From: Pseudisothecium myosuroides | Taxonomy: Eukaryota > Streptophyta > Bryopsida > Hypnales > Lembophyllaceae | NCBI GenBank assembly: GCA_951799445.1 | Contig: OX637290.1 | Span: forward strand, 34,590,987-34,654,986 | Length of the DNA: 64,000 nucleotides | Direction: 5' to 3' | Shown here: piece by piece, positions 14,887 to 53,095 of the stretch | How positions within the stretch are numbered: position 1 is the first letter of the stretch | How the letters are laid out: each line of letters begins with the position of its first letter | The notes under the pieces: model-generated | Database searches by the model: none | Seen by the model: the letters and a program-made list of their open reading frames with translations, nothing else | Told to the model about the DNA's origin: nothing | Program-made: the position numbers and the translations under genes

Positions 14887-15312
14887 TTGTTGTTCATAAG
14901 GTAGAAGAGCGTAAATAATTGGTTGTTTGGAAGTCATACAAATTGTAGATCTTCATATTATGTCAAGATTCATATAAGGAGTGGATGATGTTATCCGCAA
15001 ATTGTAAAGATGTAACACACGTATATATTCGATGATAGAAGTATAGATGCAATACATGGATTATTCATTCCATGTTTATTGTATACATGTGTATACATGC
15101 AGTGCGCATAATTTTCTATAAAGTGTTAAGCATTTCAGAATTACTACATGAGATTTTTTTGATTCTACAGTGTTGTACCTGTTTTGCATGTCATTTGATT
15201 GATAATTTTATATTTCTTTATATCAAATTATCTTGAATTTGTGATTTATAGTGCTCTTCTAAACTCCCATTTCCATGGAAAACTCCCATTTTAATGAATA
15301 TGATGTTTCAGG
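14887..15312. other. 3' flank of the tail module
   Basis: AT-rich DNA collinear with 42460-42886 at the other locus, including GTATACATG repeats near 15080. No coding frame is present. It ends at the shared boundary of the duplicated unit. Confidence 0.5.
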
Positions 15313-16362
15313 AAAGTTCAATTTCCTGATCTTGCTGATATTAGAAATAGAGACTTCCTTTAACCCAAACACAGCGTTCGCTGTGTTGACCTCGGGAATA
15401 GTCCTTTTCCATTTGAAGGTGGCCGGCAAAATCTTTGACACCACCTTCTCTCCTGAAGGAAGAGTGTGAGAGCGATGCGGCATATGGTCTGCCGACTTCT
15501 CAAGGACACACTTCAACGTAGCGGTAGCCTGCAACGTATGTTGGCGAGGCTTGAGCGTGCCCAAGTTACCGTGACGCTGAGCTTGTTCACCTTTGGCAGC
15601 AAACCCTTGGAAACGGTGGAAGGTACTCTCCGAGACACCTGTAATATGCCGCCATTCCGCCAAACAAACATCAATCCCTTCGATAGTGACCACCCTCTTG
15701 CCTTCACCATTACGATGGACCTGGCAATGTACATCCAACTTCATGTGGTACCAAAATTCGAAAGTAGAGTTCTGGTACATACGTTCTCAAAATGCTTGAA
15801 TCTTCTCCCTTGGAAAAGGTTGAACGCAGTTCTTTGAGCAGCACGTTTTGCTTGAAACTGAATTAATCGATGCTTGAGTGAGCAATGTCTTGGCCTTCAC
15901 ACAAGTCTGAATAGGAGGATTTCTGGCAACGCTTGCATACGGTCTAGACCCAGAGGAGGATGCCCGCAACAGGCTAGCTTGCCGACGATTGTACTCGTCC
16001 CTAAGGTCGTATTTGCGTAGGCTTATCCCATTCAAGTACACATGTTTAATCGGCCATGCTCGTAAAGAGTACCTCCAATCATCAGGAACGACATCAGCTA
16101 CCAGGGACTTCGAGATTTGGACGGCAACAAGGGAATCTCCCAAGGGACCATCAGAACCAATGACGAGGTCTGAATTAACGCTGTGACAAATTCCCTCAGC
16201 TACTACCACACTAGCCGCGCTGTGCAGAGTGACCACCTTCGTAATCCAGAGACGTCGTGGGATACCTTCACAATCAGGTATATCGAGAACATCTTCAGGA
16301 ACATTGTTACTCTCTCCTTCATCGGAAGAGTACTCTGGTACCGCTTGCCTTGCAGCCTCCAT
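15313..16362 (-). pseudogene. Truncated DUF7869-type transposase (minus strand)
   Basis: Reading from 16362 downward, the frame encodes DIPDCEGIPRRLWIT, then CHSVNSDLVIGSDGPLGDS, a segment resembling the Tnp1/En/Spm-type domain. A TGA at 15787-15789 follows QAF. The same frame then resumes with ERMYQNSTFEFWYHMKLDVH and continues to KIRKLNFPE. There the protein breaks off at about 15313, exactly where the duplicated unit begins. The second half, with its catalytic region, is missing. The other copy (53.1-56 kb) has the same TGA at the same codon, with Arg expected there, so the stop predates both insertions or marks a two-ORF structure. A family-B palindrome array lies upstream. Confidence 0.75.
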
Positions 16363-16695
16363 AATGTCTACGCATGGACCACATTAACATCAGCGACTGA
16401 TATGACAATATGTACCATTTTTGTTTCAAACATAACATACACAACCATTTCTGAAACTCAACATCAGTCGACTTGAATATCCCTATAACAAGTAAAAAAG
16501 AGGTATCCAGTAACATACATGCTGAAAAAGAATATTGGTGAACACCAATCGTGAATACAACAGACAATTATCACTCTGAAGCCTCAGGTGCGATGTCTGA
16601 ATACACTACAAATTTCTTGCAATTGCAAGTTTTCATTACAACATAACCCAACAATCACATTATATACTATAAACAATTTCAAAACCAATGTATCC
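16363..16695 (-). other. 5' leader region of minus-strand transposase
   Basis: The DNA is AT-rich and non-coding. It separates the transposase start from the family-B palindrome array. Confidence 0.4.
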
Positions 16696-17590
16696 GCCAT
16701 TCAACTCGAGGCGAGTTGAATTACAAGTCCCCTCAGAAGAGTTTGACAAAATACAACAACTCCCGTCAACCTATTACTCTAAGCAAAGTTGCACAATTAC
16801 AAACGACAATTCCCGATAATGAGTTATTTAGTTATTCATATTCACTCAAGCCAACAAGACCTACGACCAAGCAGCCATTCCGCAGTTTCACTCGAATCTA
16901 GTTAAATTACCATTACAATTCTGTAATATGCAATTCAAATAGAAATTACGGAGAATACATATATAAAATCCCTATTCCTCATTATCTGTGGAACCAAAAT
17001 CAATATTCACTTGCACCATGTCAAATTTTAACTAATTAGCCTCCTATCTTTAGTTCAACCCGCACCATGTTAAATTACCAATCTGCAGTCCCCTATGTGC
17101 AATTCAACACGCACCAAGTTAAATTACAATTATGCAATCCTCTCTTTTCAGTTTAACTTGCACCCTGTATAATTACCATGATTCAGTCTTCTATCTGCAA
17201 TTCAACTCGAACCATGTTAAAGTACATTTCCGAAGTCCACTACATGCAATTCAATTTGCACCAAGTTAAATTTATTTACAACTATGCAACCTACTATCTG
17301 CAGTTTAACCTGCACCTTCATGAATTACCATTATGCAGTCCAGTATCTGCAGTTCAACTTGAACCATGTTACAATAGCATTACGCAATACCTTATCTACA
17401 ATTAAAATCAAACCAAGACAAATGACCATTGTGTAGTCCCTAATCTCTTGTTTAACTCGAACCATGTTAAATTACCATTGTGCAGTCCCCGATCTGCAAT
17501 TCAACTCGGATCGAGTTAAATTACCATTACGTACTCTGATATCTAAAGTCCAACTTGCACGATGATAAATCACCGTATTGAAAACCTATT
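16696..17590. repeat. ~49-bp tandem array built on family-B palindrome
   Basis: Units of 48-53 bp repeat at 17053, 17101, 17151, 17199, 17248, 17301, 17350, 17399, 17450, 17498 and 17548, with earlier units back to 16699. Each contains a CAATTCAACTCG...AGTTAAATTACC core and a TATGCAGTCC spacer. Intact palindromes are at 16699-16721 (spacer AGG) and 17499-17521 (spacer GAT). Others have lost one arm, for example AACTCGAACCATGTTAAA. Confidence 0.85.
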
Positions 17591-17900
17591 CCGAAGCTGA
17601 AGTTCACAATTACACTACTTCCACTCTATAGTTCCCAACGGAAAATTTCCATCTTCGCCATCTTTTCCACCTCTCATAGCAAATGCAGTTCAACTCGAAT
17701 CGAGTTAAACTAACTTCAATGATAACTTTATTATTTGTGATGTGATCAATGTGATCGAGTTCGTAGATTCGTAATTCAACTCGAATCGAGTTGAATAACC
17801 GTATGTCATACTGGGAAATTGTTTTCTCTGTGAATGCTGTTCAACTCGTATCGAGTTTAATTGTCGAATCCGTATCACACAAACTAGAGGTCCACTTTCT
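17591..17900. repeat. Three intact family-B palindromes
   Basis: TTCAACTCGAATCGAGTTAAA at 17689-17709, ATTCAACTCGAATCGAGTTG at 17773-17792 (arm continuing to 17795) and TTCAACTCGTATCGAGTTTAA at 17840-17860 are about 70-85 bp apart. The spacers are AAT, AAT and TAT. They lie upstream of the minus-strand transposase, in the position of its 5' intron. Confidence 0.85.
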
Positions 17901-24830: not shown

Positions 24831-27101
24831 GTAAATCTGCTTCTCATTCATTGAACCTATGGAGCAATGTCAGCAATTGAACCGATTTGAGCTGTCTACT
24901 GGTTTAGGTTACTTTCAGGTCTGTAGAAGCTTACAGCTACGTTGTATATTCATCAAAAGCTTTAGCCAAATGTTGTCGTGCGTTTTTTAGGTATTTAAAT
25001 GTTGTGTTTCAGTTGTTGAGCCTTTCAGACGGTGCAACTAAGTGAGACTGTCAGAGTGCATATTTTTGTTTTTGTGCATACCTGTCGATTCCCTATGCTG
25101 CGCTTGTTTTTCTGTTGTTAGGGTTTGTCACCATTCGAAGAGCCATCTGAAGTTTCGAATATTCGAAACGAATGCTAGGTTTTCCAGCACTTTTTGCTCT
25201 GCATAGGCCAAGTTCTTAGGTTTCCTCTATAAATCATGCGGCAAGAAGGTATCAAGCAGCTAGGCAGTAGCATGCAATTCTGTGTGCATACCTGTTGATT
25301 TAATCTGCTGCAGCGTTGTTAGGGTTTTTCACCATTAGAAGATCGGTCCAAAGTTTAGAATGGAAACAAATGCTAGGTTTTCTAGCATTCTTTGCTCTGC
25401 ATAGGTTGAGTTTTTAGGGTTTTTGTGTGAATGATGCGGCAAGAATGCTTGAAGCACCTAGGCAGTAGCATGTGGCAAACATTTTTTGCCTCTGGTTTTT
25501 AGTAATGTTGCCAATATTCACTATTGCTGCGGAATCAGTGTCGCGCTATAAGGTAGAACTCATGTCGATTGGTTTAGCTCAATTTTTATAGGGGAATAGG
25601 CTAATCTGATTAGAGTGAGGTCTGGATTCGTGTTAGGGTTGTAGACGTCCTTCACTGTTTCCTTCTAGTGTCCTCAACTGTGCTACGGTTTTCATTCTTG
25701 GATTTGATAAAAATGTTCAGTTCATTGGCAACCACAGCATAGTTTCAGTAAAATTTATGCTTCTGTGATGCTCGTTTTCCTGGATTACCTGCAATCTAAT
25801 TTTCTTTACTGGCCATTGTGACAAATTTCATTTCCATAAGGCTCCGGTGTAGGGCTAAAAGGTTGGAGGCACCTGCTCCAAATACCTCTGGAATCTTCGC
25901 GAAGCATCAAATTGTCCAGCTCGTGGAAGGTATCAGATTAAGCTCATGACAGTTTAACTTGAATGATGTCAATTCAGCTCAAAGGCAGGTTCTTCTAAGT
26001 CAGTGTAATGCTAATTATTTCTAGATTTAGCAAAATTTTAGAAGATGCAGTAATAGTTTAAAGGTTCCACTCCACATATGTCCGGTCTGTACATTGGAAG
26101 CGCAGAACAATTTTTTATGTAGAAGGTCTTGCAATTCAACTCGGCTCGAGTTGAATTGCAGTCTCATAAAACACAGTGGGCTCCAAATGAACTCGCACTT
26201 GGACATCAGAACTGGCCTACAGCCAAAGCATCCTGAAGAATAATCAAACACCCGAACTAAATTTTTTCTTCCTAAAACGTAACAAAGAAACGCAAATTCT
26301 GCAATTCAACTCGTACCGAGTTGAATTGCAGAATCAATGCAACCAGTAAACCAGATCTGACGGGACAGCAATTCAAACCGGGTCGCCATGAACTCCTCCA
26401 GCAAGACTTGCATTTCAACTTGGCCTGAGTTGAATTGCAATCCCGTCGTAATACAATAATCAAGCTCCTAAGGAGCTGCAATTAACCTCGGGTCCACACA
26501 AACTACAGAAGAGTGACTTGCATTTCAACTCGGCCCGAGTTGAATTGCAATCCCGATTCTAACCGTGAAACAAGCTCCAAGAGGTTCTAATTCAACTCGG
26601 GTCAACATAAAACGCGAAAGACTGACCTGCATTTCAACTCGGGTCGAGTTGAATTGCAGTCCCGAACGTAACTTTGAAAGCAGCTCCAAGGGGCTCCAAT
26701 TTAACTCGGGTTGATGTAAACTCCGAAAGACTGACCTGCATTTCAACTCAGGTCGAGTTGAATTGCAGTCCCGAACGTAACTGTGAAAGCAGCTCCAAGG
26801 GGCTCCAATTTAACTCGGGTTGATGTAAACTCCGAAAGACTGACCTGCATTTCAACTCGGGTCGAGTTGAACTGCAGTCCAAAGAGTAACCCCAGAACAA
26901 GCTCCAAAAGAGCTGTAATCTTCTCGAGTAGAAAGAAATTGCTCCTAGGAATGAGAATTGAAAAAAAGAACTGACCTCCTCCCCAGAAGAATCGTGAATA
27001 CCCTGTAAACAAAAAACTAGATTCAAGAAGTTCTTTTAACTTGGGTTGAGTAGAAAAAACAAAAGCAGTTTGGAAAAAACTCACTATCAAGCACCCTGCA
27101 G
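24831..27101 (+). repeat. Long 5' intron of copy 2 with family-B palindromes
   Basis: The intron runs from GTAAAT to GCACCCTGCAG. The first part (to about 26.0 kb) includes a direct repeat of about 200 bp (GCTAGGTTTTCYAGCA near 25160 and 25370). From 26131 to 26876 seven full palindromes CAACTCG-NNN-CGAGTTG start at 26131, 26301, 26410, 26520, 26629, 26738 and 26847. The last six are 109-110 bp apart. Half-sites lie between them at about 26588, 26698 and 26807. Confidence 0.8.
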
Positions 27102-27917
27102 GAAATGGAGAATCAAGTGAAGAGGCTGGAAGCCTTCTACAAACGGTATACCATCCTTCCTAAAGAAGTAGAAGAAATTGGCAACGAGAAGGTGCTAGGA
27201 GATTGCTGGGAGTGGCAAGAGCCAGAGAAAGTGGAATACTGGACACTAATACTCGTCCCAACGACCACCAATCTGAGCTTCAGAGCAAAGTTTGCGAACT
27301 CCCCAATAAATCTACTAGTCTCTCTCACAGAGACAATCATAGAGTTTAGCCATGGCGGAGACGGAACGTTATTTGTCACGTGTGAGACAGTGGACCTTGA
27401 CCAAAATGAACCGTACTTGTTCTCGTACGTGGTGGACGCCAAAAAAACCATTTTCAGTATCAGTGCATATTGCCAAAGTCTCAAGGACACGGACTATAGC
27501 GAGCTGCTCTAGAACCTGTACAACTACATCGATGCAAAGAGGTGGCAAGGACCAGAAGGAGCTTTGCTATTGCCTCAAGCATTACTCTCAAGGCTGCTGA
27601 ACCTGAAGCAAGGGTTCGATCGAATGACCTTAAAAATTCTGCACAAAGCCAAGAACATACGGCCGATCACCGTCACCAGCCAGGGAGCAAGTCAGGGTTC
27701 ACTACCCATCGGCACACCAGAGACGGGAAAGAGCCACACCTGGCTGAAGGTGACTGAGAAATTTTCTAGAGGAAACCCATCAAGCACTCCGCCACCAGCT
27801 GCAAAAAAAGGAGGAAAGAAAGCCTTGGCAGCAGCAGAGAAGACGGCTGCTCCAGAAAAAAGCATGATTTCCAAGGTTACAAACATTTTAAGAGACATCG
27901 GCGGGGGAGTTGTCGCA
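27102..27917 (+). CDS. Copy 2 N-terminal exon
   Basis: It begins with GAA ATG directly after the acceptor, as in copy 1. About 170 residues match the copy-1 N-terminal domain by pattern (hydrophobic strands, then YLFSYVVDAKKTIFSIS). A TAG at 27510-27512 interrupts, after which the same frame runs to a basic linker (KKGGKKALAAAEK) like the copy-1 lysine-rich linker. The likely donor is GCA|GTATGA at 27918; if not used, TGA follows at once. The function is unknown. Confidence 0.55.
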
Positions 27918-28184
27918 GTATGAATTTTTGGTTTTTCTTAGTTTATCAATAATTAGAACGGAAACCAATGCCCAGGTAACCGGATCTGATTAGGTAAAAG
28001 CAGAAAACTAAAAATAAGTTAGAAAATAGAATTAGTAGAGAACCGGATCCGTTCTGGATCAAAGTTACTGTGGAACGGAAACGGAATCCGAACCGGAGTT
28101 GGTCTAGGACCGGATTAGGGTTAGAATCAGATCTAGAATGACTGGACCGGAAATAGTCATGATAACTCAGCCAGGGTCGTCAGA

Positions 28185-28194
28185 TTATATAAGG
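28185..28194 (+). promoter_or_regulatory. TATA box of gag-like element
   Basis: TTATATAAGG lies about 225 bp upstream of the gag start and is followed by a pyrimidine-rich leader, as expected for a retroelement or plant promoter. Confidence 0.6.
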
Positions 28195-28417
28195 ACTAGT
28201 CTTTTCTCAGTCACACCTCTTTCATCCCAGATGCTTTCGCGTATTGTCTTCCTTCTTTCTAGTGTTTGAGCCTTCTTCTCATTTAGGAGCGCTCTGTAGT
28301 GTTTGTTGTGTGTTGCAGGTGCGCATTCCGGTTGAGATCGGAGAGAGAAGTGAGAAACGGGACGTGCGGCTAGGAGAGAGTGAGGTAGAAAGCGGAAAGG
28401 TGGTAGAGTGGGTGTCC

Positions 28418-30078
28418 ATGCCCCAGTCAAGGAGGAAGAGAGCAGGGTCATCTACTCTTCCCGCGTCCGAAGTTAAGCTTTGGAAAGTCGTTCCAGTCCT
28501 GCCTGCTCAGGATACGGAAAAGGTAGAGCTCATGGAAAATTTGACTTCCATGGATTGTCAAGGATTAATGGAGAAACCCTAGGATTTTAGGGAGGAACGG
28601 ATGGTAAAGGAGCTGTTGGGCAAAGTGTCCAACCAGTTCGACAACACGAATCGAGGGAATCCGCACCGATGGACGGAGGATTCGTGGAGAGCGGTTTACG
28701 GATTCCGGTCAGGAGGGTTCGGGATGGCCAGCCGGAAAGACGATTTTGTCCATGGCAAGTTTCACGGCCCAGTGAACCCAAAGGACGGATACGCTGTCGA
28801 GGACTGCATAGACGAGCAAGAGCGCCGTCTTTTGAAGTTCCTCATTCCGATCCTTCATCCGGAAAAGCCAACGAGGGTCACGATCACCCTCGCCAACACG
28901 ATTTTTGATGCCCTAAGAGGAGACCGGAAAGTCAATTGGGCACGGATTATATCCGACTTGGTCTTTCAGCTGGTCGGAAGAGTGGGGAAGAGTAGGGCCA
29001 CCCTGTGTGTCCTTACATCTTCCACTTGTACAACAACCAGGGGCTTCTAATTGACACGGAAGAGAAGATCTGGAGGACTCAGGAAACCATGCTGAAGTAT
29101 GGCGAATCCGAGTCTGAGGACAAGTTAATGGAGGGTTCCGATACGGAACCAGAAGGAGAGGAGGAGGATCTGCCCCCGCCCCTGATTAAGCGGCAAAAGA
29201 CGACCTCTCCTAATAAGAGGGGGATGCCTTCCGGTTCCGCACCAAAATCGGATAAGGGGAAGGCAGCGATGGAGGAAATGAATCCGAACGATCCGTTCGA
29301 GACCCTTAACAACATTCTCTACGGCATCAGAGCGGATTGGGAGGTCAAGCGGAGAATTACAGCAGCGATTGGGGTGTTGGTGGGAGAAAAACCGGACAGT
29401 CAATTGCCAGAGAAGGTGGCAGATTGTATCACCAACCCGCTCGAAATCCGGAAGCAGGAGGAGGAGATCTGGAAACTCCGGGATGAACATGACACCTTGA
29501 AAGCGGAATTGTTTGCGGTCAAGGAAAACACTGCAGCCACCAAGGCAATGGCGGATGAGGCTCGGAGGTTGGTGGAGCAGGTGAAGGCCACGCTGGAGAA
29601 GATCGGAGCGGCTACCGCCAAGGCAAAGCTATTTGATGAAGAAGTTCACAAGGAGAACAAACTATCCGGTTCCCGGATGGTCCGGATTCTCACGGACTTC
29701 TCCGAGCAGGTGGAAACGACAATGAGGGAGGCACGGGTAGCTGCAGACCGGATGGAGGAGAACAGCAGAAGGTTGACAGAGGTACTGATACGTTTGTCGG
29801 ACCTCTCATTTCCAGAGTTCACGGAAGGATTGATTCCAGGGAATGGAAAGGATAGGACTCCAGAGTCGAAGAAATCGAGGGCGGAAGCAATATGGGCCCA
29901 GATAGCTTCACAAACAATTGACTTGGGATCCTTGCCTGGATCAGATCGGGGTGTTCCTATTCCAGGTGGACCGGATCCGTCCAAGGGAACTGATCGGAGC
30001 CGGAATTTAGCAGAGGTCTTTGAGGAACTAGACCCGGGACGGGAGAGTCCCACAGTAGGATTTAGAGTTGCAGAGTAG
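28418..30078 (+). pseudogene. Gag-like protein with plant transposon-protein domain
   Basis: I chose the ATG at 28418 (MPQSRRKRAG). The frame is interrupted by TAG at 28580-28582 and by a frameshift near 28990-29005. After the shift it continues in the next frame to 30078. The segment ITLANTIFDALRGDRKVNWA, followed by CPYIFHLYNNQGLL, resembles the putative plant transposon protein domain found in gag-like ORFs of non-autonomous retroelements. Downstream come an acidic stretch (EPEGEEED), a basic KRQK patch and a coiled coil (about residues 300-460) with regular heptads. No protease, reverse transcriptase or integrase is seen. The role would be particle or RNP assembly, if functional. Confidence 0.6.
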
Positions 30079-31257
30079 TTAGTTTTATTTTCTTGTTTTA
30101 GATAACTAGGAACGGAACCGGATTGGGGTTTCAGCTCGGCGGTGTTAGGCTGATCCGATCCGGATTTTCCGGGCGTTGATTGCGGCGGACTTTTGGGCCG
30201 CTTTGTACTTTTTGAAGTTGTATATATTCAGTCTCCGCGTGGTGGGCTGAGAGTCTTTTCTTTGCAATTTTCTTGTGTTTTCTATTTGCTCTCTTGTTGT
30301 GTGTCTCTCCCGAGTGTTGGCAGGGCTGCGTGACGAGGAGTTAGGCGAATACAAGTGGATTTGCGAAGTGATTTCTCTCCTTGGTGTTTCAGTTTTTTTT
30401 TTTTGTGCATGTGAGCGGGTAGTAAAGAGTTAGGAGTACATTTCAGTTCCTCAGCACGTCTAAAGTTTAGGATTCCGGGTGAGAAAGCCGTTGTTAGGCT
30501 AGGCGGATAGGGAGGGATTCCTTAGTCGCGCTAGAACTCCTGGGTGGGAAATCCAGTTGAGTGTCCGATCTCCTGTGAGGTCTCACCGCCTTAGTGGTAA
30601 ACGGAAGAACTTTAGTCGCTGTTGGTACGGACGAGTATACTTGTAGCCACCTAGCTTTGCACGGATCGGAATTGGTATCAAGGTCGTTGTAGTATGAGCG
30701 GATCGTATGGGGGGTTTCTGTGTGACCTGCGGACCGGAATGCTATCCGGCCTGTTGTGAGAGATCAAACCGGATCCAGAATAGATTAGGAGAATAGAGAA
30801 TAGGAGAGTGGGTCTTCAGCCACTATAAGTCACGAAAGGTGTGGTGGGCCTACCACTCTCAAAAGCAAGTGGCAAACTGTCTGATGGTGAAACAAAGGCA
30901 AAACTAAACCGGATAGGAGTAAGGGTTTGTGTTGAGATACTGGACCGGATTGGTTCAGGAGGGTATCCAGGACGGAAAGTTGGAAGATCCTGGTTTTGTG
31001 GTAGTTTGAGAAGCCGGATAGCTATTAGGACCAAAATAGAGTAAGATTCCGTCCATAGTTTTCTGGGTGTTTTGGTGTTTCCGATTTCAGATCTAGGACC
31101 GGAAAGTAAGAAAATAGAGACTGACCAGGCTTAATCGTCTAATAAAGTTAAACACTTCACAGGATCTCTTGGGTTCGATCTTTAGAGTCACTTAGTTATA
31201 CTCTAGAGCGATTTTTGTGAGTATAACGGGGAATTTACATGCCTTGTGCTGCGACAG
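30079..31257 (+). other. Non-coding 3' part of retroelement segment
   Basis: It contains TATATATTC at 30221, TTGGTATCAAGG at about 30671 (similar to the initiator-Met tRNA primer site) and several ACCGGAT words. No coding frame is present. It is followed by the next copy-2 exon at an ACAG acceptor. Confidence 0.4.
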
Positions 31258-31883
31258 GAGTAAAAGAAATTGATTATGAAGAGTGCACACGAACACACAC
31301 GGAGTATTGGGCCGAGTGTATTGACTCCTACATTCCGTCTCACAATAAGAAATTTGTGATTCCCATTGAGCAGCTGGAAATTCCTCTAGAAAATCTCAAC
31401 ATCCGGGATCTAGAGGAGCTTGGAGTGAAGAAAGCCATGAACTTCCTCCTAAACATGCCGGACCCCGAGAGGAAAATGACGCTCTGCGTCATGCCACAGG
31501 GACTTACCCAAAAGCCGGAGACATTCAAAGAAGTGATGAATGGGAAGTTCTGGATGGTGAACGGGCAATACACAGTGGAGGTCTCTAAGCGTATTCAACT
31601 GCTACCAAACTTGAAGGAGAAGGCGGAGAACTTCAAGGCGTGGGAGTGCTTTGTTGTGTGGAACAAGAACGACCACATCATACGGAAGATTTTCACCTAC
31701 TACAACCGTGTCAACCATTTCCACAACTTCAATCCCACCTGGGCAACTAACATCATTGGGTCGAGATTTGTGTGGGAGAAGATGGGATGCCCTCCTCTAG
31801 ACAAAGAACTTGTGGAGGTCGGGACAGTGTCAGATAAGCTGCGGAAGAATCTAAAGGAAGTGGTAGCCAGTAGGAAGTATAAG
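31258..31883 (+). CDS. Copy 2 exon with ParB-like NGQYT motif
   Basis: It opens after GCGACAG, carries a phase-1 start and ends at AAG|GTAACT. FWMVNGQYTVEVSKRIQ at about 31551-31601 corresponds to the copy-1 GGQHT site and to the (D/G)GQH(R/T) pattern of the ParB/sulfiredoxin fold. A W-rich strand (AWECFVVWNKND) follows at the same distance as in copy 1. The His to Tyr change may affect any catalytic or nucleotide-binding role. Whether ATG 31239 is used as a start is uncertain. Confidence 0.6.
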
Positions 31884-32027
31884 GTAACTGCTGCTATTCA
31901 ACTCGACTCGAGTTGTTTCTCATGAGGCAAATCTTGATGTTCGTGCTTGGTTTCATGGTGCATTTTAACTCGGTTCGAGTTGAATTGCTTTTGAAACTAA
32001 AATGTATGCTGCCACTCTTTCTTGCAG
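31884..32027 (+). repeat. Intron with two family-B palindromes
   Basis: ATTCAACTCGACTCGAGTTG (31896-31915) and a TTTTAACTCGGTTCGAGTTG core (31963-31982) are 65 bp apart, with spacers ACT and GTT. This intron is at the same place as the copy-1 intron 6544-7002, which carries five family-A words. Confidence 0.85.
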
Positions 32028-33395
32028 GACTTTGCGGATGCCATCAGGCTGCGATTTTCAATGATTGACGTCAAAAAGTCTCAGAGATCAGCTGACGCAA
32101 AGAAAGAGGTGGACGTGCACAACGAGCTAAAGATCATCACTGCTCCAAAGAAAATCTATGACCTCTGGGCTGAGGTTATATCTGCCCACGTCTAGGGAGA
32201 GCTCACTGATCCAGACACACTTCTGAAGTTCAATCAAACGGACAAGTAAGATCAAGAGAGGGACGGCGTCTTGACATGAGAGTTCTTCAAGTCTCTTGGG
32301 AATCTCTCGGAAAATGATTTCAAGCGGATGGCTTTGCACCTTCTGGAGAGAACACCAAACAGAGAGTTGGCTCACCCCAAGGTGACCATGAAGAGTCCTA
32401 AGTCCATCCTCTCTGACTGTTACTCAGCCAAGGATTGGCTAGAGAGGTGTAAGCGGAAGCAAATTGTCCGCAAAGCATTCCACGCCCTCAAGAAGAATCT
32501 GAAGTTGTACAACAATGAGGGAAAATTCAGAAGGGAGAAGTGGAAAGACTTCAAGAGAAGGTACAACATCACAAAGGCGACCAAGAATACCCTTCTAGTC
32601 GGGCCATTGGAGGAGTTCTTCTCCTTGGCAAAGTTGCCATCCAACAAGAACAAGAGCATCGCCGAGCTCTCTCCGTATGCGGCGGAGTTCTTCAAAATCT
32701 TCCTGAGCAGCAAAGGCAAGTTCACCAAGCCGGCATCAAAAGCATTTTTCAGGCCATACGATATGGAGGATGATGTACTCGGCAGCTGGGATAAGGACGT
32801 CTGGGCTGAAACCACAAGTTCAAATATCAAGCTCGCGGTTATGGACTTCTGCAACATTCCCGGAGTGACATTCAAGGAGACATCCAAGGATGGTGAGCCG
32901 TGGTACGCAGCATTCGTAGACACTCTGGAGGTGGATGAGGAGCCTAAACCGACCAACCCCCAGGTTTGGCTGTGGATTTGCAGAGAGAAGGACGTGGAGG
33001 TTGATCTGTTGCAGGAAATCCGCACGTCAAAGTTTGGTGAGGTGTACGCCCTACACTATGCAGAGTACGTTCCTTCACCATTTGAGCGTTTAGGAGATGT
33101 TAGTGACAGAAGCGCAAAGGCAAAGGAGTCAGTGCAGTTGCTCTTCTTGATCAAGAAGAATGCCAACGTGAAGAAAATACCGAAGAAGTTTGATACCAAC
33201 ATCCTGGGGAGGTATCACAAAACGTCCAGTATGGACGTGGATTGGTGGATGCACAACACTGAGTTGTGCATGGAGTTTTATTTGCAGGTGTTAGGTCTTT
33301 TTGCACCACCGAGGGATACTTGTGGGCGCTGGATTACCCACCCTTGGTAATAGAGCGAACACCGACCAGGTTCTATGCCTTTATCCACATTTTTT
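32028..33395 (+). CDS. Copy 2 middle exon with three in-frame stops
   Basis: The frame opens after TTTCTTGCAG. TAG (32193-32195), TAA (32247-32249) and TGA (32277-32279) all lie in frame within 90 bp. The frame then stays open for about 340 codons to 33350, a lysine-rich helical region. Near 33310 a one-base slip gives TTEGYLWALDYPPLVIERT and reads to about 33395, which fits copy 1 better than the unshifted TAA end at 33350. The domain is unknown. Confidence 0.5.
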
Positions 33396-33689
33396 AATAT
33401 ATGGGGGTGATGTGAGCGCAGTCCACTGTGCCTTCCAAGCAATGGATCTTTTTTGCTAACGTTTCCTAAGTGTCGTGGATGGCAGCGAATAATTAGAATG
33501 CATGTAGTAACTCACAAGGTAACTGCAATGCTCAGGGGTAGCGGTAAAATTCTAACTCTCTAACTATCTATCCTATGTCGAGGGTAGACTGGGTAGTTGG
33601 CGTCATTTCTAACGTCCCTAACTATGTAAAAAGAGGAACCCCTATGTTCCTTCCATGAACCTCTAAGACTATCGTGGGATTTTAAGACT

Positions 33690-34460
33690 CCACCTAGAAG
33701 TTCTACTCTAAAGACTAACTCTAAAGTTTAACTCTTACTCTAATCTTCACCCTCTAAATGAAACTCTAGGTTTTTACTCTTTTAACTTGGGTTTAAATAC
33801 TAACTACCGACTTTTAACTCTAGGTTTTTGCTCCTAATTTAACTCTGAAATTTATCCTCGGAATTAAACTCTAGGTTTAACTTTCAACTCTGAGTTTTTA
33901 CTCCTCTATTCTATTCTAAATTTTACCTCTAATTCTATGTTCCTATTTCTAAACTACTCTAGGATTTACCCTCTAAAGTTAACTCTAAATTTTCCCTTTT
34001 CACTGTAGATTTTTACTCCTAATTTAACTCTAGGTTTTTGACTTTTAACTCTAAATTTTTACTTCTAAAATTAATTCCCAATTTTAACCTCTAGGTTTGA
34101 CTCTACGTTTTCACTTTGACTCTAGATTTTTCTACTAACTCTAAAATTTTACTTCTACTTCTAACTTTTAACTTCTACTTTTAGCTTTTCACTCTCACTT
34201 TTTACTCCCCAATTGACTAAAATTTAACCTTTTAATTTAATCTAAACTTTTGACTTTTGACTTTTGACTTCTACTTCCAAATTTAATCCTATCGTTTTAA
34301 TCCTAGATTAGCTCTAAATGTTATCCTCCTAAATTTAATTCCAATTTTCGACCTCTGAATTTTAACTTCCCTAATTAAAATCTTAATTTAATCCTAGGTT
34401 TTTAACTTGCTATTTGATCTTTAATTTTAATCCTAAATCCTCCTTCTAATCTAATCCTAA
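33690..34460. repeat. Degenerate CTCTAGGTTTTTACTC repeats
   Basis: Short pyrimidine-rich phrases of about 20-25 bp recur dozens of times (AACTCTAGGTTTTTACTCCT and close variants). The tract is low-complexity and strongly strand-biased, with few guanines on the plus strand. Confidence 0.7.
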
Positions 34461-35357
34461 TTCCCGTCCATCGTTTCTTGTGGTTCACTTTTAATTAAAA
34501 TTCCCCCGTTCTACCCCCTACCGCTTAACTTAGCCTAATGCGGTCAGTTTACGGTCAAATCTTAATTATAAGATGTTTTCGGAAACCTCTATTCCTAATC
34601 TATCAACTTTTGAATCTAAACTTCTAATCTACACTAATCTCGGATGCTAATCACGCTCTAAGGGCAGATTAGGGCAATAAATGCTAATTAGGGAGAAACA
34701 TCAAAGATTAAATCAAAAACTCACCTCTTCACTACCGGTGTCGGAAATGACTTCGTCCACGTCCACGTGTACATCCTCACGCTCCATGGTAGTCTTTGGC
34801 TTTGTTTTGAATTTTTCCCAAGCTCACCGCTTATTGAGAAAATATTACAATTTTGATGATCTAAACTCTCTCTTTCCCTTCCTCCTTTTCTTTTCTTTCT
34901 TTCCCTCTCTTCTACACTAGCACTATTCCACCTAAGCTTTTATGAGTCTTACACTATGGTTTCAAACTACGAGAAGGGTTTAAATGTTCTTCCTACCCTC
35001 TTACACAATTTGCCTTTGTGTCATCCTAATCCTCCTCCCAACGGTCACCACAAATTCTCAAGATTTCCCTCCCTAAGTCTACCTAGGCTTAGATCTAGGT
35101 TACTATTTATCGTCTCCCTCCTTTTTGTTCTCTACTTCATCTCCTTCTTCCTAATCTCCCTCCATTGTTCATGTGTGTATTTGGTTGGTTAGAATGGAGG
35201 TTTCAAGTGTGCGTGCAGGTGTGACGTGAAGGGTGCAATTATGTGTGTAGGAGTGATGTGAGGTGTTCGACTCTCTTCCTTCCCTTCCCTTTGTTCTTTA
35301 GTCACAACTTGGAAGTTTGGGAATTTTTGGCCTTGGATCCCCACTGGGTTTAACTGG

Positions 35358-35505
35358 CTTTCTAAACTAGCTCTACCTCTGATTTCCTAAACTAGATCTA
35401 TTACTGACTTCCTAAACTAGAGTTATCACTAGGTTCCTAAACTAGAGTTATCACTAATTTCCTAAACTAGATCTATAACTAATTTTCTAAACTAGGTCCT
35501 GATTA
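35358..35505. repeat. ~26-bp minisatellite CCTAAACTAG
   Basis: Six copies of CTAAACTAG followed by (A)TCTAT/AGTTAT(C)ACTAATTTC-like sequence occur 25-28 bp apart. Confidence 0.75.
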
Positions 35506-35694
35506 GTGGAGAGTTTTTTCAAACAAAAACCAAAGTTGGGGCCCCGCAGAGCATCATCCCGTTGTGGTCTGAAAATCAGCCATGATGCATGTGAGACATG
35601 GTCAGTCTAACCAAATCACAAGACCGGCCAAGTTTGGGGCGCTGGACAGGCAGTGTACCGGCTTGGTCTACCGGCCCTGTACCGGCTGCCGCTG

Positions 35695-35805
35695 GGCTCC
35701 GTTACTGCAACTGGGCTCCGTTACTGTGCTGGCTCCGTTACTGTAGCTGGCTCCGTTACTGCAGCTGGGCTGGTCCGCTGGACTGGCTGGTCGCTGGGCT
35801 GGCTG
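35695..35805. repeat. GGCTCCGTTACTG minisatellite
   Basis: Four GGCTCCGTTACTG copies are 17-20 bp apart, followed by CTGGCTGGTCCG variants. The tract is GC-rich in an AT-rich setting. Confidence 0.7.
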
Positions 35806-36224
35806 GTCCGTTGGCACCACAAAATTTTTAATCACCCCAACGGGTTCCCTTAGGGGAACCCACTTAACCAATAAAAATTGGAGTTTTGGAAAAATTAGTG
35901 TTTGGAGTCAAGGCTTCGTCGTCCGGGGGTTAGGCCCGAGGTTGTGAAGCAAGACGTTCGGCTTAGCAACCACGTATACCAGGGCTAGGTAACTAAACTT
36001 GGCCCACCACTTCCTACTTCATGCTAGACTCTAATATCTTGGAAGCTAAACTCTGGAGGTTTCCACAAAGGTCTTGGAAACTAGACTTTGGAACTAAAAC
36101 CCGGGGGAAGTGCAAAGCTTCGCCGTTAAGTTGGTTTTAACACCAACTTTAGGACTTTTTGACACCTCGGGGGTTCAAGGCTTCGCCGTCTACACTTTTA
36201 ACACATGTTTTAGGACTTCAACTT

Positions 36225-36765
36225 GTCACTAGTTCAAAGCTTCGCCGTTTCCAAGGGGGGGTCCACACAACAAGGGGAGTATTAGAAGAAGGTAGAAAAG
36301 ACAAACGTAAGGAACACACGTGGCAAAGCCAAAGCTTCGCCGTCCCAAGGGGGGGTCCACACAACAAGGGGAGTATTAGAAGAAGGTAGAAAAGACAAAC
36401 GTAAGGAACACACGTGGCAAAGCCAAAGCTTCGCCGTCCCGAGGGGGGGTCCACACAACAAGGGGAGTATTAGAAGAAGGTAGAAAAGACAAAGTTAAAG
36501 AACACACTTGACAAAGCCAAAGCTTCGCCGTCCCGAGGGGGGGTCCACACAACAAAGGGAGTATTAGAAGAAGGTAGAAAAGACAAGGTTAAAGAACACA
36601 CTTGACAAAGCCAAAGCTTCGCCGTCCCGAGGGGGGGTCCATACAACAAAGGGAGTATTAGAAGAAGGTAGAAAAGACAAGGTTAAAGAACACACTTGAC
36701 AAAGCCAAAGCTTCGCCGTCCCGAGGGGGGGTCCACACAACAAAGGGAGTATTAGAGGAAGGTGA
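36225..36765. repeat. ~95-bp tandem repeat, six copies
   Basis: TTCGCCGT recurs at about 36241, 36336, 36431, 36525, 36619 and 36713, that is, 94-95 bp apart with high identity between copies. Each unit reads AAAGCTTCGCCGTCCCGAGG, then GTCCACACAACAA and a purine-rich stretch. High identity implies recent expansion. Confidence 0.9.
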
Positions 36766-37176
36766 GAATACACAAGTGAGGAAAACAACACGGTTAGGAC
36801 ACGTAAAAACACACAACTTCACAAGCTAAAGGCCCCCCAAAGCGGCATCGCCAAGGTACGGTGGGGGGTGACTTTAGGATTAGGACAAGACACCAAAAGA
36901 CTCCTAAACTCACAAGTTAGATCACAAAGGAACTACAAGAGAGAGATGAGGACTCTTAACTCGTAACAAAGGTATAACAACCGCATGAGAAGTACACAAG
37001 GCAAGATAGAAGGACCCCCTAAGGACCTTCAAAGCTTGAAATCTAGCAACAACGGAGCAAAAAGTGCTCCAAAAACACTGTAGAGGTTTTTGGCTTCAAA
37101 CGCCAAAATATCCAAAGCAAATTGGACCCACGGACCCAAACAAAAGTGAGGGGGTGTTCTAGAGAGAGAAATGGAG

Positions 37177-37188
37177 CCCTTATATAGG
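37177..37188 (+). promoter_or_regulatory. TATA box within the 5-kb insertion
   Basis: CCCTTATATAGG is followed by a CT-rich leader (CACCCCTCTCTCTAAAG). It may be the promoter of a long terminal repeat. Confidence 0.45.
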
Positions 37189-38429
37189 TTTCCCAAGGGC
37201 TCACCCCTCTCTCTAAAGCTCTAAGGTAACCTTATCAACGGGGATTTTCATCCTCATCCTCAAAGATTTTCATCCTACATCCTAAATTTCTACTTCTACC
37301 ATCTATGCTGGACCAACATCCTAACTTTTGGAGATTAGCTCCAATCGTCAAACGGATTGCGCCGTTGGATCCAAAACGCCGTGTTTAGTCCAAGAGCCCC
37401 CTACACCCCGTACCGAGGCCAAAAAACCCATCGTAGGCTAATTTAGTTTAAAAACCAAATCGTGGTAAAATCCTAGATCTTGGGGGTCTCCTATTTTGAG
37501 AAATGTGAATAGCCTAGGGTCTCCGGTAGGTGCGAGAGAATCGGGAAGGACTTTTGGTTGACTTCGTTTCGCCATCGTATGGTCCCGGAATGCCGGTCAA
37601 CGTGGCGGGGACCCCGCCACGTGGTTAATTCCCGAGGAATCTCGCCGGTTCGGGTACTTGTCGCTATCGGAATGTCGTGAAACTTCACGGAGCGCATTAT
37701 TAACATAAAACAAGCTAGTCTAATTTTTAGTGAGATTTTATTGTAACCTGGGTAATTTCCATGAAATTCCCGTTGGAGGTTAGGAGGGTTGACCACCCGG
37801 AAAAAGGTTCTTCTGCAAGTCGGAAGATGCCGGGATTTTTCACGTGACCTCTCAGGGAGTCGCATGAAAGACGTGCGGGTGTGTTTCCGTACCTGGCACG
37901 ATTGGTCAATGGAGATTTAAACTGGACATCTCCTTGAATCAGCGACAGTGCGGGAATCTTCTGCAGGTGGAGGAATCTTGGCGAACCGATTTCGCCGTTG
38001 GACTCCTGGCATGGGATTCACCCTAGAACACCATCCTTGGGCTGTAGATTCCTCCACGGGCCCGGTCTTGTGTGAGTGGCTCCTGCATGCTAACAATCGG
38101 GATTTTGGGAATTCGTCGATCTAATGGGGAATTCTAAATCTAACTCTAGGACCCGACCTAGTGGCCTCGCTGTGGATCCCTCGAACCGACCTAGCCATGA
38201 ATCGCCACATTCATGGTGGGATTTAGCCCTTTTGGGGCTGTGTGACTCGAATCCTCCAAATCTAACCGTTTCGTTATTTCTACACCATTTTAGGCAAGGT
38301 TTGGGGGATTCTAAGTAAGAAACACAAATCTAGACCAAATACTATAATGGGTATGACACAACCCTATTTCGGTTCTACACTCTTTTTATGGATTTTTCTA
38401 TACTTTTATCAACTTTAAATTGCAAATTT

Positions 38430-38527
38430 CCAAAAAAATAATTCTACGAGTCCCAAGTGACAAATTGGGAGCTCACAATACTGTCCTCTCGATTTTTGCG
38501 GGAGGCAAAATCGTCTACGCTGCGTGG
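38430..38527 (+). CDS. Copy 2 short exon after the insertion
   Basis: ILRVPSDKLGAHNTVLSIFA, followed by GGKIVYAAW and a GTATGT donor, parallels the copy-1 sequence VFVNVNGGPEFTYLGL before its GTATGC donor. The 5' edge is uncertain because it abuts the insertion. Confidence 0.5.
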
Positions 38528-38869
38528 GTATGTTCTCTTCTTTCTTTTGGTAATTCAACTCGGACCGAGTTGAATTGCGGTCATGGAAGTGCTGGTCTTA
38601 TCATTTGTCAATTGGACTCAGTCTAGGGTAAATTGTATCCCTGGTATTCATGAGATTGTGATTGTTGTTTTAACTCAAGCCAAGTTGAATTGCGTCCATG
38701 TTGTTTGTAGGATTTCCATTTGTTGTTTTAACTCGGACCAAGTTGAATTGACATGCGCCGCGCAATGAAGTGTATCTTACATTCTTGTTTTCATTCAAAT
38801 GTATTTCATCTCGAGTCGAGTTGAATTGTGCTTTGCATACCTCCTAATTCTTCTTGGTTGTTTTTGCAG
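38528..38869 (+). repeat. Intron with four or five family-B palindromes
   Basis: Words start at about 38551 (spacer GAC), 38608 (decayed), 38668, 38725 and 38805, roughly 57-80 bp apart. Each core is AACTCRRNNYYRAGTTGAATTG. The homologous copy-1 intron (8362-8460) is short and has none. Confidence 0.8.
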
Positions 38870-39871
38870 ATGCTTTCCTTGGACCACTATGTTGTGGGAA
38901 ACTCAAAGAAGTGCGACATGTTCAAGAGTTTAACAAGGAAGTTTGAGTTCTTGGACAAGGATGACTTTGTAGATGTTAGTTACTTTGTGGACGAAGGCAA
39001 GCACGCAAAGAGATTGTCCAAGGGATCCTCCAGCTCAGGAAGGGCAAGCAGAAGATGACGTCCGCGGAAGAAGCCGAACACGACGAGTCTCAGAGGGATA
39101 CTGCTATCAACCTTGAGGAGGAGGAGGAGGAAGAGGAGGACGAAGCCCTCGGGGCCGAACCGATTGAATTGGGGGAGTGGCGTGATCCAGCGGCAGATAT
39201 TGTCAGGGAGCTGACTGGTGAAGGCGCGGGTACTTCAAACGCAGTTCCCGAATCGAGTGAGATGAGGGGGTCGTCGGGTAACTCAGCTCAGCAGAATGCC
39301 ACACCGGTCTCAGCCTGACCCAATCAAACTCCGAGTTCGACTAGACGGCCTTCTCAAAAGCAAAAGAGGCAGTTGGTTGTCCCTGAGAAGCAATGGATGA
39401 TCGACTTACTGACTTCCCAGAAGGAAGAAAATGAGAGAGCACGAGAGGAGAATCGGGAGGAGAATAAGAAGTTGCGGGCGGAAACGCAGGACATGATGAA
39501 CAATATGATGGAGAGACTGCCGGTGATGATGGCATCCATAATCACACAGTCCATCCCGACAATCGCTCAAGCTATCATGAATGCAAAGCCCATGCAGGCT
39601 CTAGATCCTAACGCGACATCACCGTAGCTGATGATCAGTCAGGGGTCAACGGACAGCGCGAGGCAGCAACCAGCGGGGTCGGCAAATCCCTCTGCAAACA
39701 CCCGCGTTTCGGAGATCCTTCCGTCACAGCCCTCTCCAGCCTCCCCTGCCAACGTCGTGGACTCCGCACCGTTATCCCTTGACGTTGGCGCTGTTGCTGT
39801 GAATGTCGAGCGTACAGCGGAAGGGATAGAGGCCAAGCAGTCACAGGACCCTGTGACTGGTAATCCTCCAG
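38870..39871 (+). CDS. Copy 2 linker exon with acidic and coiled-coil parts
   Basis: The exon opens at TTTTTGCAG|ATG. The first frame ends at TGA (39056-39058) after a Ser-rich stretch, and a shifted frame then runs on. That frame holds an acidic run (EEEEEEEEDE), TGA at 39316-39318, a helical coiled-coil segment (QKEENERAREENREENKKLR), TAG at 39625-39627 and a Pro/Ser-rich tail. A donor inside CCTCCAG|GTTGTT gives a phase-1 join to 40094, recreating a glycine codon. It occupies the place of the copy-1 linker exon but has no SGDPT repeats. Confidence 0.5.
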
Positions 39872-40093
39872 GTTGTTCCCAGTGATTCACTCAGCCTCTA
39901 TTTCAACTCGACTCGAGTTGAAACTCCTTCCTCTGGTTTCGTTTTGTGCTGGTGGTTAGTCGCAGTTAGTGGCAGTTAGATGTAGAGCTGGAGTTTCTTG
40001 TGTACATTGTAAAAAGCTTTTCCTCTTTGTGGGACTATGTGATATATTTTTTTCTTACAAAAAATGTTTTGTGCTCATTCGTAACAGTCGCAG
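39872..40093 (+). repeat. Intron with one family-B palindrome
   Basis: TTTCAACTCGACTCGAGTTG at 39900-39919, followed by AAACT, has spacer ACT. The intron ends at CAGTCGCAG. Confidence 0.7.
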
Positions 40094-40547: not shown

Positions 40548-41505
40548 GCTAGCAATGAGGCATGCGTCACGAGTGGTGAGGCGGAGGGCCAAGTCCTCCC
40601 TCCATTCACGTCCGGGGCAACATCAAAATGGCTCAATGTCGTCCTGGATTTGAATGGGGTACTTTGCGTCTGTGAGGATAAGAGGTACAATATGAGGGAG
40701 AGCAGGTACATTGAACCCGAGGAAATATATCCCGGCTTAGAAACGTTCATTGTGGGTGTCAAGAAAGTCATAATTTGACCCCATTGCCTAACTGTTCTCC
40801 GGGAGTTATCCAAGATCGCAAACCTCTTGGTCTGGAGATCCACAAAGAGGTCCACGGTCGTGGAAGTTTGTGGATACTTGTTCAAAGATTTAGACCCCCC
40901 CTTGCATATCTTTGGGCAAGAGCAATGCAGCATCTTTAAATGCAAATCCAGAAATGCAAAGGCAGTAACCTATAAGGGAACGAACAAAAATTTGTTCCTG
41001 AAACCGCTAGAAAGGCTGTTTGAGATGAGTGCTTCCTTGTTCACGCCTGAAAATACGATTATAGTCGATCACAGTCCTGCAAAACATGTAACAAATCACC
41101 CAAAGAATGTGATTCTTTTTGAGTCGTGGTCGTATGAGGGCTACGGAGTGCTGGATGGAATTCTTATTGATCATCTTCTTCCTTATATTCAACGATTGCA
41201 TGCGGCCAAGCCAATGGAATTGTACCCCTTCCGAAGAGACAATATTTTTGGGCATTTGCACCTTTTTTACGAAGAGGATCAGACTGAGTACAAAGAGCTC
41301 AAAAAGGCAGTGGAGTTCTCAAATAGGATTTTCCACGAGTCCAATGTTGGAAATACTAATTACACCGTGCTCTTCGAGGAATCGAGGAGGCCCCAGCATA
41401 GGGAGGTCAAAGTAGAGGACTTCTGTTTCTTGTACTATCACGTCAGGGGATCAAAATTGATTCCAAGATTTTACGAGTCGTATTGTATTGACTTAGGTTA
41501 TGTTT
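40548..41505 (+). CDS. Copy 2 FCP1-like HAD domain
   Basis: The exon opens at TGAGCAG. Motif I is VVLDLNGVLCV, so the nucleophile Asp is kept and the second Asp is Asn, as in many plant FCP1-like proteins. A TGA at 40776-40778 replaces the Arg expected before PHCLTVL. LLVWRSTKRS is the second motif, and TIIVDHSPAKH is motif IV with one Asp changed to His. A C-terminal extension with RRDNIFGHLHLFYEEDQTEY matches the fragment at 13.4 kb. The likely ancestral role was protein-serine phosphatase; the mutated motif IV and the stop make this copy doubtful. Confidence 0.7.
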
Positions 41506-41653
41506 GAGATTTACACTTGTTTTGATCATCTTTTGCAAGCTGCCAAAATATACAAGTGCTTGACTTCCTTGTGTGATGCTAGTCCTAAGCCTTCATGTGA
41601 TTGTGTATTGCAACAAGCGTTGTTTTGACAACGGTTTTTATGTTTGTTCCCAG

Positions 41654-42459
41654 GCTTCTTTTCGTGATGCTTCAGTCCGTGTTTCGGACTGTGGCAACAA
41701 GTGTGCTGCTTCTGCTGATTCCTTCTCTGACTATGGACAATTTGACATATCGCAAGGCGGATTGGGACACATCATGTATTCCGCTGCTACTGCACAGTCG
41801 ACAATGGATTTCTCTATGATGCCTGTGGATGATGGGGTTGTAGATAGTCCTCCAAATGGGGGAAAGCGACCCCACGTTATGAGCTCCCCTTCTCCACTTA
41901 AAGGCCGTTCTCTGGTAACTTCACCTCAGGATTCCCCTGTGATGAATGTGGCAACACAAAAAAAGTTGTATGATGAGCAAATGTGTGACGCACCAGTATC
42001 TAAGGTATAGAGCTTCGATCCTATGATGTACAAATCAAATATGTTTTCTATGATTGCCTCAATAATGTATAGGGCTATTTTTTAATGATCTGATTTCATT
42101 TGCATTTGCAAGTCATGGATACATTGGCCATAGCCAATGGCATCCGCACTAATGGGTCGCGACAGTCCTCACCTTCAAATTGCACTTCTCAAGAGCGGCC
42201 TACGTCATCTAGCGGCCTACGCCGCATTCTACCTCGTCGCACTTCACTAGGGGTTGGGAGACACCAATGCAAGTCCCATAACAAAAATCCAATTCCAATT
42301 CATTCAGGTCGTCGTCCGTGGGATGCTTGGGAAGAAAAGTCCTTGAGAAAGCAAAGGCAAGAGATACTAAGGGAAACATGTTCAAAGAATTTAGGGTACA
42401 GTCGAGGACCAGAGATGTTGGCAGCACTAGAAAAGTCGAAGCCTAAGACCCACTCGTAA
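41654..42459 (+). CDS. Conserved two-exon tail module (locus 2)
   Basis: Exon a (41654-42004) follows TTTGTTCCCAG and ends AAG|GTATAG. Exon b ends at TAA (42457-42459). The protein matches the 14.1-14.9 kb module closely, including DCGNKCAASADSFSDYGQF and RRPWDAWEEKSL. The acceptor of exon b reads TTTGCAAG instead of TTTGCAGG, so splicing here may be shifted or lost. The domain is unknown. Confidence 0.65.
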
Positions 42460-52200: not shown

Positions 52201-52204
52201 ACGG

Positions 52205-53050: not shown

Positions 53051-53095
53051 ATGCCTTTTTACTTCATCGTTCATTGAAGTGTAAGTTAATTATTA

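Follow-up and report, generated by a model that had tools for sequence, protein, structure and literature searches.

Family-specific palindromic words shared by the two genes of putative mobile elements of the moss Pseudisothecium myosuroides

VANDAL transposons, which are Mutator-like elements, offer the clearest case found of transposons that escape silencing by means of a protein reading a family-private motif. Excerpts of two reports on Arabidopsis describe short element-private motifs that form tandem arrays within introns and upstream of several of the element's genes; the motifs differ between families, the transposase is conserved and the other protein is variable (PMC5735166, PMC10398659). 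The arrays lie in introns of VANC and VANB and upstream of VANA (PMC5735166, in excerpt). The motif of VANC21, YAGTATTAY, is short, non-palindromic and present in one orientation, and VANC holds DUF1985/DUF287, according to the same excerpts. For CACTA elements (En/Spm, Tgm), an excerpt describes subterminal repeats bound by the element protein TNPA, together with 13-bp CACTA inverted ends (PMC2613891). Excerpts on bacterial ParB/parS and Noc/NBS name sites of 16 bp (PMC8494293, PMC7053999, PMC8429893).

The window analyzed here is a stretch of 64,000 nucleotides of P. myosuroides contig OX637290.1. In the window and at related loci, arrays of a word specific to one element occupy noncoding parts of more than one of its genes, a property shared with VANDAL/VANC. 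The first-pass annotation had drawn this parallel and, as far as layout is concerned, it fits the arrangement excerpted from PMC5735166. The components are different. The moss words are palindromes that span 16–29 bp, some lie in coding sequence, and the genes encode X, with its ParB-like box and FCP/NIF region, and DUF7869; in the main exons of X other than X1 8461-10497, Pfam found neither DUF1985 nor DUF287. The CACTA systems are similar in that a protein of the element binds a repeated motif (putatively so in the moss) and in the divergence of motifs and proteins between families, but the moss words sit in introns or 5′ regions, and no ends were identified in the stretches examined. X shares a GQHx box with ParB and Noc, and word A is likewise a 16-bp palindrome, which has no spacer. 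Unlike in ParB, the arginine of the box is replaced in X, no HTH was recognised in the X exons submitted to domain searches, and neither ParA nor a role in segregation is indicated for the moss element.

Word B, TTCAACTCG-NNN-CGAGTTGAA, occurs in the X2 gene in 13 copies at ≤2 mismatches (8 exact), all within inferred introns between 26137 and 39920; an initial estimate had been about 14. Five more copies at the same threshold lie outside X2, at 16702-17858, on the upstream side of DUF7869-1, a DUF7869 gene that is truncated, so the word does mark X2, as had been proposed, but is not private to it. Window-wide, CAACTCGNNNCGAGTTG gave 18 matches at ≤2 mismatches, compared with a mean of 0.11 in 100 dinucleotide shuffles. 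A weight-matrix scan returned 40 hits (36 B sites and 4 C sites), compared with 1–2 in each of five simulated sequences. The 36 B sites are divided between X2 introns (20) and the region upstream of the DUF7869 gene at 15.3–16.4 kb (16), with none in X2 exons, the two long X2-interrupting stretches or the FCP copies. Exon and intron models are our own, inferred from splice-like sites and reading frames. The X2 features are as follows.

24831..27101, + strand: X2 5′ intron (inferred), 13 B sites including decayed ones
26405-26880, + strand: 109-bp tandem array in the X2 5′ intron, two palindromes per unit
27102..33350, + strand: X2 gene body with ParB-like box, in pieces 27102-27923, 31227-31883 and 32028-33350
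31884..32027, + strand: X2 mid intron (inferred), 2 B sites
38481..38868, + strand: X2 intron remnant (inferred), 4 B sites at 38550-38829
39898..39926, + strand: B site (1) in the inferred intron that separates the last X2 exon from the FCP/NIF exons
40548..42459, + strand: FCP/NIF-type exons downstream of X2, NIF match just below cut-off

The X2 gene body carries several in-frame stops and one 3.3-kb interrupting stretch. The order in which FCP/NIF exons follow X2 is repeated at other X2 loci.

X1 carries a different word, A, distributed over the following features.

4057..11242, + strand: X1 gene, ParB-like box and C-terminal NIF/FCP domain, two in-frame stops
4191..5219, + strand: X1 5′ intron (inferred), A words TCGTGGGATCCCACGA
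6544..7002, + strand: X1 mid intron (inferred), 5 A words
9422..9769, + strand: four A words at an exact 108-bp spacing and in the same frame, within a coding exon of X1
11268..13310, + strand: X1 3′ region, further A words

Among 26 hits of the A matrix, 24 fall inside the X1 gene, and the remaining two score 12.9 and 14.7 bits. The A pattern has no match in X2 at ≤3 mismatches, and X2 contains a single degenerate matrix hit, at 33668; the first-pass annotation had reported no family-A word there. Its proposed X2 introns are plausible, and different words do occupy comparable introns of X1 and X2. The two genes are not recent paralogues. The X1 and X2 proteins are very distant, with 22% identity over 91 amino acids (E 0.001).

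The partner genes and the third word, C, are located as follows.

15310..16361, − strand: DUF7869-1, truncated, transcribed away from X2
16453..17864, − strand: B array upstream of DUF7869-1, 16 sites, partly in 49-bp tandem
52201..53055, + strand: word C array upstream of DUF7869-2, TTTAGGTCG-NNN-CGACCTAAA, 7 sites
53142..55960, + strand: DUF7869-2 gene, two in-frame stops and a later frame break

The weight matrix built for C had shifted towards B: 35 of its 43 hits are B sites, 7 are C sites and one, a weak hit at 22358, was dropped. The X partner of the C element is absent from the window. In Pfam the partner gene matches DUF7869 (PF25273) only, with neither a Mutator-like nor a Tnp2-type transposase, and no clear inverted ends flank DUF7869-2 among the 25 longest pairs listed. 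An AlphaFold model of DUF7869, built from 38 of 198 hits, has a mean pLDDT of 65.9, and a Foldseek search with it returned nothing at E≤0.001; a transposase fold for DUF7869 thus lacks structural support. One DUF7869 protein hit (P0078) is labelled "transposase" by its source. A literature search gave no hit for DUF7869 and nothing fitting among the papers listed under related terms, and viral contigs yielded neither the B word nor a DUF7869 relative. The CpG ratio upstream of DUF7869-1 is 0.97, a poor fit to a B array that has long been methylated.

Across the 388 Mb of genome scanned, the words far outnumber their controls (A, 905 vs 0; B, 198 exact copies vs 1; C, 18 vs 0). Two stretches, at C1:1.98 and 16.95 Mb, are 15 Mb apart and 97.9–98.7% alike over about 14 kb; each holds X1 and a distant DUF7869 gene in divergent orientation with A words in both genes, and the ends of the A element lie beyond the stretches compared. 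At L022/L023 an X2 relative (82%) and a DUF7869 gene are likewise divergent and B is present in both. One word is therefore common to both genes of a pair, for A in two near-identical copies and for B in the window and at L022/L023. The word had been regarded as belonging to a single gene copy; because both genes of a pair carry it, it is a property of a two-gene mobile element. Each element family has its own palindromic word, in introns and 5′ flanks of both genes.

In the loci examined, word and clade agree, as the first-pass annotation had suggested. B was present and A absent at ≤2 mismatches in 12/12 stretches with X2-like genes (11 other loci), and X1-like genes at all three further loci (L024 plus copies a and b) had A and no palindrome classed as B; nearly all of these loci were reached through matches listed for the words, so the sampling of words was not independent of clade. 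Only the L024 X1-like gene, which has five A words at 108-bp spacing, was met without such a choice. At 4 mismatches, some drifted X2-clade words are even classed as C, in four X2 loci. Relatives of X2 at about 50% identity have TTTAACTCG and TTTATCTCG half-sites, so that the X2-clade word drifts by degrees; X1 and X2 words differ, but the wholesale switch envisaged for the divergence of the two copies gives way to graded drift within the X2 clade. Word kinship follows protein kinship in three DUF7869 lineages. Between the B and C elements, DUF7869 identity is 52% and the half-sites have 6 of 9 positions in common; the DUF7869 protein of the A element is 30–32% identical to the other two, and the A word matches B at 4.

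The ParB-like N-terminal box of X gave a weak match or none in plain searches but is supported by hhalign against 11 phage ParB-like proteins, with scores of 38.6 for X1 and 32.0 for X2 (maximum 19.2 in 100 shuffles of X1) and a probability of 90.9% for X1 and X2 combined. The box is short, reads GQHT or GQYT and has no ParB arginine. Compared directly with phages, the X2 box had no match and that of X1 matched six records (best E 1), one of them annotated as ParB-like. Searches with the X1 and X2 proteins found no homologue at E≤0.001, about 8000 candidates being scored in each, and Pfam, NCBIfam and PHROGs reported no HTH or other DNA-binding domain in the X exons submitted.

We propose, and give an even chance, that the palindromes are binding sites of an element-made protein with a VANC-like anti-silencing role, filled by unrelated proteins. 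The element would be a two-gene transposon, with DUF7869 as the probable transposase transcribed divergently from X, and with the word repeated in introns and 5′ regions of both. A homodimer, most likely of the fast-diverging X protein, would bind its own family's word and keep the genes of that family transcribed, presumably by relieving silencing as VANC does for VANDAL. Tandem duplication would enlarge the arrays, and joint drift of protein and word would cause families to differ. If true, this would be a second, unrelated case, marked by palindromes that the two genes of a pair share and by words that grade from relative to relative; it would indicate that the strategy evolves repeatedly, and would offer a natural series of protein–DNA specificity changes (AC, TC, GC and GG in one half-site frame) within one many-copy genome. 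A ParB/parS-like self-marking of a eukaryotic transposon seems quite improbable. X would nucleate on words in both genes and spread along the element, its FCP/NIF domain (polymerase-CTD-phosphatase-like) would keep the genes transcribed, and word and protein would co-diverge into mutually unreadable families.

That the words are instead sites for a transposase complex, serving excision and transposition rather than expression as CACTA subterminal repeats do with TNPA, is unlikely though conceivable. Words do sit on DUF7869 genes, their kinship tracks that of DUF7869, and CACTA families whose binding proteins are unlike have different motifs as well (PMC2613891, in excerpt). Against this, the moss words are not confined to the vicinity of the ends but are found in inferred introns, in 5′ regions and, in one case, within a coding exon, although the stretches compared stop short of the element ends. 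Sites of host transcription factors, exploited as intronic enhancers, would explain the words in 5′ introns and the dimer-type half-sites of B and C, which have a fixed 3-base spacer and sharp limits. We consider this fairly improbable: 15 of the 19 fetched B stretches hold an X2, FCP or DUF7869 match (the other four hold none), and a separate word for each element family means that several host factors would be needed.

Neutral spread, as tandem-repeat arrays or functionless passengers, would suit the tandem nature of several arrays (49 and 109 bp) and the existence of decayed copies, in which, for B and C, 26 of 30 changed CGs became TG/CA. It is very improbable, however, as words stay similar even where their flanks are no more similar than chance would give. 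In the 13 dispersed B sites, 11 of 18 half-site columns are invariant and the others reach 0.62–0.85, compared with 0.26 in flanks; all four coding A words are identical over 16 bases, in codons as well as peptide, with flanks 30–35% identical; and B recurs in X2 relatives about 45–50% identical. Most doubtful is an action as transcript hairpins (in splicing, as a small-RNA source or in RNA binding), despite B-type palindromes whose arms reach 18 bases on either side of a 3-base center and weak arm covariation in C (p 0.026 and 0.014, 7 sites). Within A or B no compensatory change exceeded that in shuffles, arm deviations are mostly one-sided, and A has no spacer and also lies in coding sequence; the absence of covariation within A and B led us to reject this reading.

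A search of Rfam gave no match. A fourth palindrome, ACCGGATCCGGT, in an X2-interrupting stretch was dropped as not convincing (4 matches vs 0.92 expected). The spacings between words (42, 49, 67, 78, 108 and 109 bp) were inspected for helical phasing by eye.

The family-B palindrome (CAACTCGNNNCGAGTTG, with a 3-base spacer) has 18 matches at up to two mismatches in the whole window, against 0.11 expected. The first-pass annotation had placed about 14 B copies and no family-A word in the second paralogue. The B array is indeed there, with a count of 13 by this pattern, and the absence of A is borne out, all 18 matches to word A (TCGTGGGATCCCACGA, no spacer, up to three mismatches) being confined to 4.4–12.4 kb. 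A weight matrix for B gave 40 hits in the window versus one to two in simulated sequence; these comprise 36 B sites and four sites of C, a word related to B. The main features are as follows (exon and intron limits are our own models, predicted from splice-like sites and reading frames).

4057–11242: X1, the gene carrying word A; C-terminal NIF/FCP domain (E = 1.3e-12)
15310–16361, minus strand: DUF7869-1, truncated gene matching PF25273
16702–17858: five B matches (pattern, up to two mismatches)
Upstream of the minus-strand DUF7869 gene: 16 B matrix sites
27102–33350: X2, the gene carrying word B; FCP-type exons downstream of it; NIF match (E = 3.4e-4) just under its cut-off
26137–39920: 13 B matches (pattern, up to two mismatches), eight exact
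X2 introns: B matrix sites, 13 in the 5' intron, two in the mid intron, four and one in two later introns
52201–53055: word C, upstream of the second DUF7869 gene
53142–55960, plus strand: DUF7869-2, gene matching PF25273

The matrix scan found no B sites in the X2 exons (3.8 kb), in the FCP copies, or in the 3.3- and 5.1-kb stretches interrupting X2. The 3.3-kb stretch (27978–30951) is enriched in RACCGGAWY: it holds 10 of the window's 11 matches, against 3.16 expected over the full window, and may be a further element marked by a motif of its own.

X1 and X2 share only 22% identity over 91 aa. Both match a GQH box known from ParB-like proteins of phages (hhalign scores of 38.6 for X1 and 32.0 for X2, against a maximum of 19.2 in 100 X1 shuffles and 9.5–15.7 for windows off the box); the box is weak or invisible to plain searches, and the X1+X2 pair reaches a probability of 90.9%. 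An X1 query also finds two X2-like genes elsewhere in the genome at 28% identity (L030 and L032; E = 1.6e-5 and 3.3e-5), which supports a remote kinship. Domain searches of the exons given recognized no DNA-binding domain. DUF7869-1 and DUF7869-2 are 52% identical over 341 aa, and the named organisms among the best protein matches of DUF7869-2 are Physcomitrium and Ceratodon, from which a moss host is assumed. An AlphaFold model for DUF7869 (mean pLDDT 65.9) matched nothing in Foldseek at E ≤ 0.001. Since X1, X2, and DUF7869-2 hold in-frame stops, these window copies look inactive. Read by eye, DUF7869-1 (15787–15789) and DUF7869-2 (53717–53719) have an in-frame stop at the equivalent place, where the consensus of relatives is Arg. 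An FCP segment is duplicated (13369–15309 and 40937–42884, 80% identical), and its first copy ends at the truncation point of DUF7869-1.

The window occupies C4:34590987–34654986 of the 388-Mb assembly and stops ~0.34 Mb short of the contig end. Genome-wide there are 198 exact B sites (one for the reversed control), 905 A sites (control 0), and 18 C sites (control 0). The B and A loci examined came from the first matches listed, and most were found through the words. B was present in 19 of 20 fetched 10-kb stretches. An X2-like gene of 36–82% identity accompanies it in 12 of the 19, which represent 11 loci; of the others, one has FCP only, two have DUF7869 only, and four have none of X2, FCP, or DUF7869. 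The suggestion that the word follows the protein copy held among these mostly word-chosen loci: none of the 12 X2-bearing stretches has an A word at up to two mismatches, and in L024, fetched only as a neighbor, an X1-like gene (88%) comes with A words while B is absent. A-like words at three to four mismatches occur in L026, mostly around a further DUF7869 gene that is 34% identical to P0004, which sits left of X1 on the minus strand, its transcription pointing away from X1. L020 and L021 each have one C match (up to three mismatches). The X2 relative in L025/L026 (about 81–82%) has its interruption between the parts that are also separated in the window X2. Two arrays of 10 B words, mirrored and separated by ~9 kb, lie in L018 and L019; L018 also has an FCP match, but no X2 is recognizable in these stretches.

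Several loci have the layout of a two-gene mobile element. In L022/L023, a DUF7869 gene (minus strand) and an X2 gene (plus strand, 82%) are divergent with B in both, the arrangement of the window at 15–40 kb; the DUF7869 protein of L022 is a longer relative of DUF7869-1 (92% identity over 350 aa). Two A-word clusters on contig C1, 15 Mb apart, are 97.9% and 98.7% alike in two alignments (7.5 and 7.7 kb) that reach the limits of the fetched sequence, and differ in a repeat between the aligned parts. Each carries X1 and, divergently transcribed from the opposite strand, a DUF7869 gene. The A words occupy the 5' and mid introns of X1 as well as the region upstream of the DUF7869 match; over the residues reached, X1 is 96–99.6% identical to the window copy.

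B and C share a 9-3-9 build, and their half-sites agree at six of nine bases (chance 0.007, or 0.024 allowing shifts). In X2 relatives of ~50% identity, many half-sites are TTTAACTCG or TTTATCTCG, apparent intermediates on the way from one word to the other; six palindromes in four such loci are classed as C at four mismatches because of such half-sites. The DUF7869 of the C1 A element is 30–32% identical to those of the B and C elements. With the A-element protein distant, the B and C proteins closer, and the B and C words related, word kinship, on these sequence comparisons, tracks DUF7869 kinship in three lineages.

The words themselves are conserved. Alignment of 13 dispersed B sites shows no variation in 11 of the 18 half-site columns, the others being at 0.62–0.85, with flanks at 0.26 identity; 17 A sites average 0.67, flanks 0.26. 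An X1 coding exon (9422–9769) has four A palindromes in exact 108-bp steps and one frame, each encoding SGDPT amid unlike intervening sequence; the 16-base core is identical in all four, and flanks are 30–35% identical. L024, the X1 relative, has five A words, also at 108-bp spacing. Identical codons within unlike flanks point to constraint on the four X1 exon words at the DNA level. A hairpin would be the other reading of such palindromes. The C arms covary weakly (p = 0.026 and 0.014, seven sites), and B-to-C changes are mostly two-sided in 28 pooled sites, where one pair is GC for AU in seven and the next is GC in four and GU in two. Covariation is absent within A and within B sites, so half-sites read by a protein dimer fit A and B better.

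The word layout of the moss element repeats that of VANC targets, whose arrays, according to PMC5735166, occupy VANC and VANB introns and the region upstream of VANA; there, target motifs vary between VANDAL families, the transposase is conserved, and VANC is variable. By analogy, X, the more divergent protein, would bind the word of its own family and, once bound, would sustain expression of both element genes.

In decayed B and C sites, 26 of 30 changed CGs went to TG or CA, the pattern expected of methylated cytosines; A sites keep CG in 40 of 42. These counts are consistent with B copies that are older and methylated and an A family that is younger, although the picture is mixed, since the CpG ratio is 0.97 upstream of DUF7869-1 versus 0.66 in the X2 5' intron.

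Other repeats in the window are inverted repeats at 20866–21619 (754 bp, 96% self-complementary) and 58390–58737 (81%), a 4.5-kb minisatellite at 42954–47434 (17/51/85-bp units, AAGGGCATTTTCATTCC type), tandem arrays at 36235–36775 (94 bp, 96% matches) and 439–1363 (183 bp), and a short TTTAGGG run, plant-type telomere-like, at 18920–18949.
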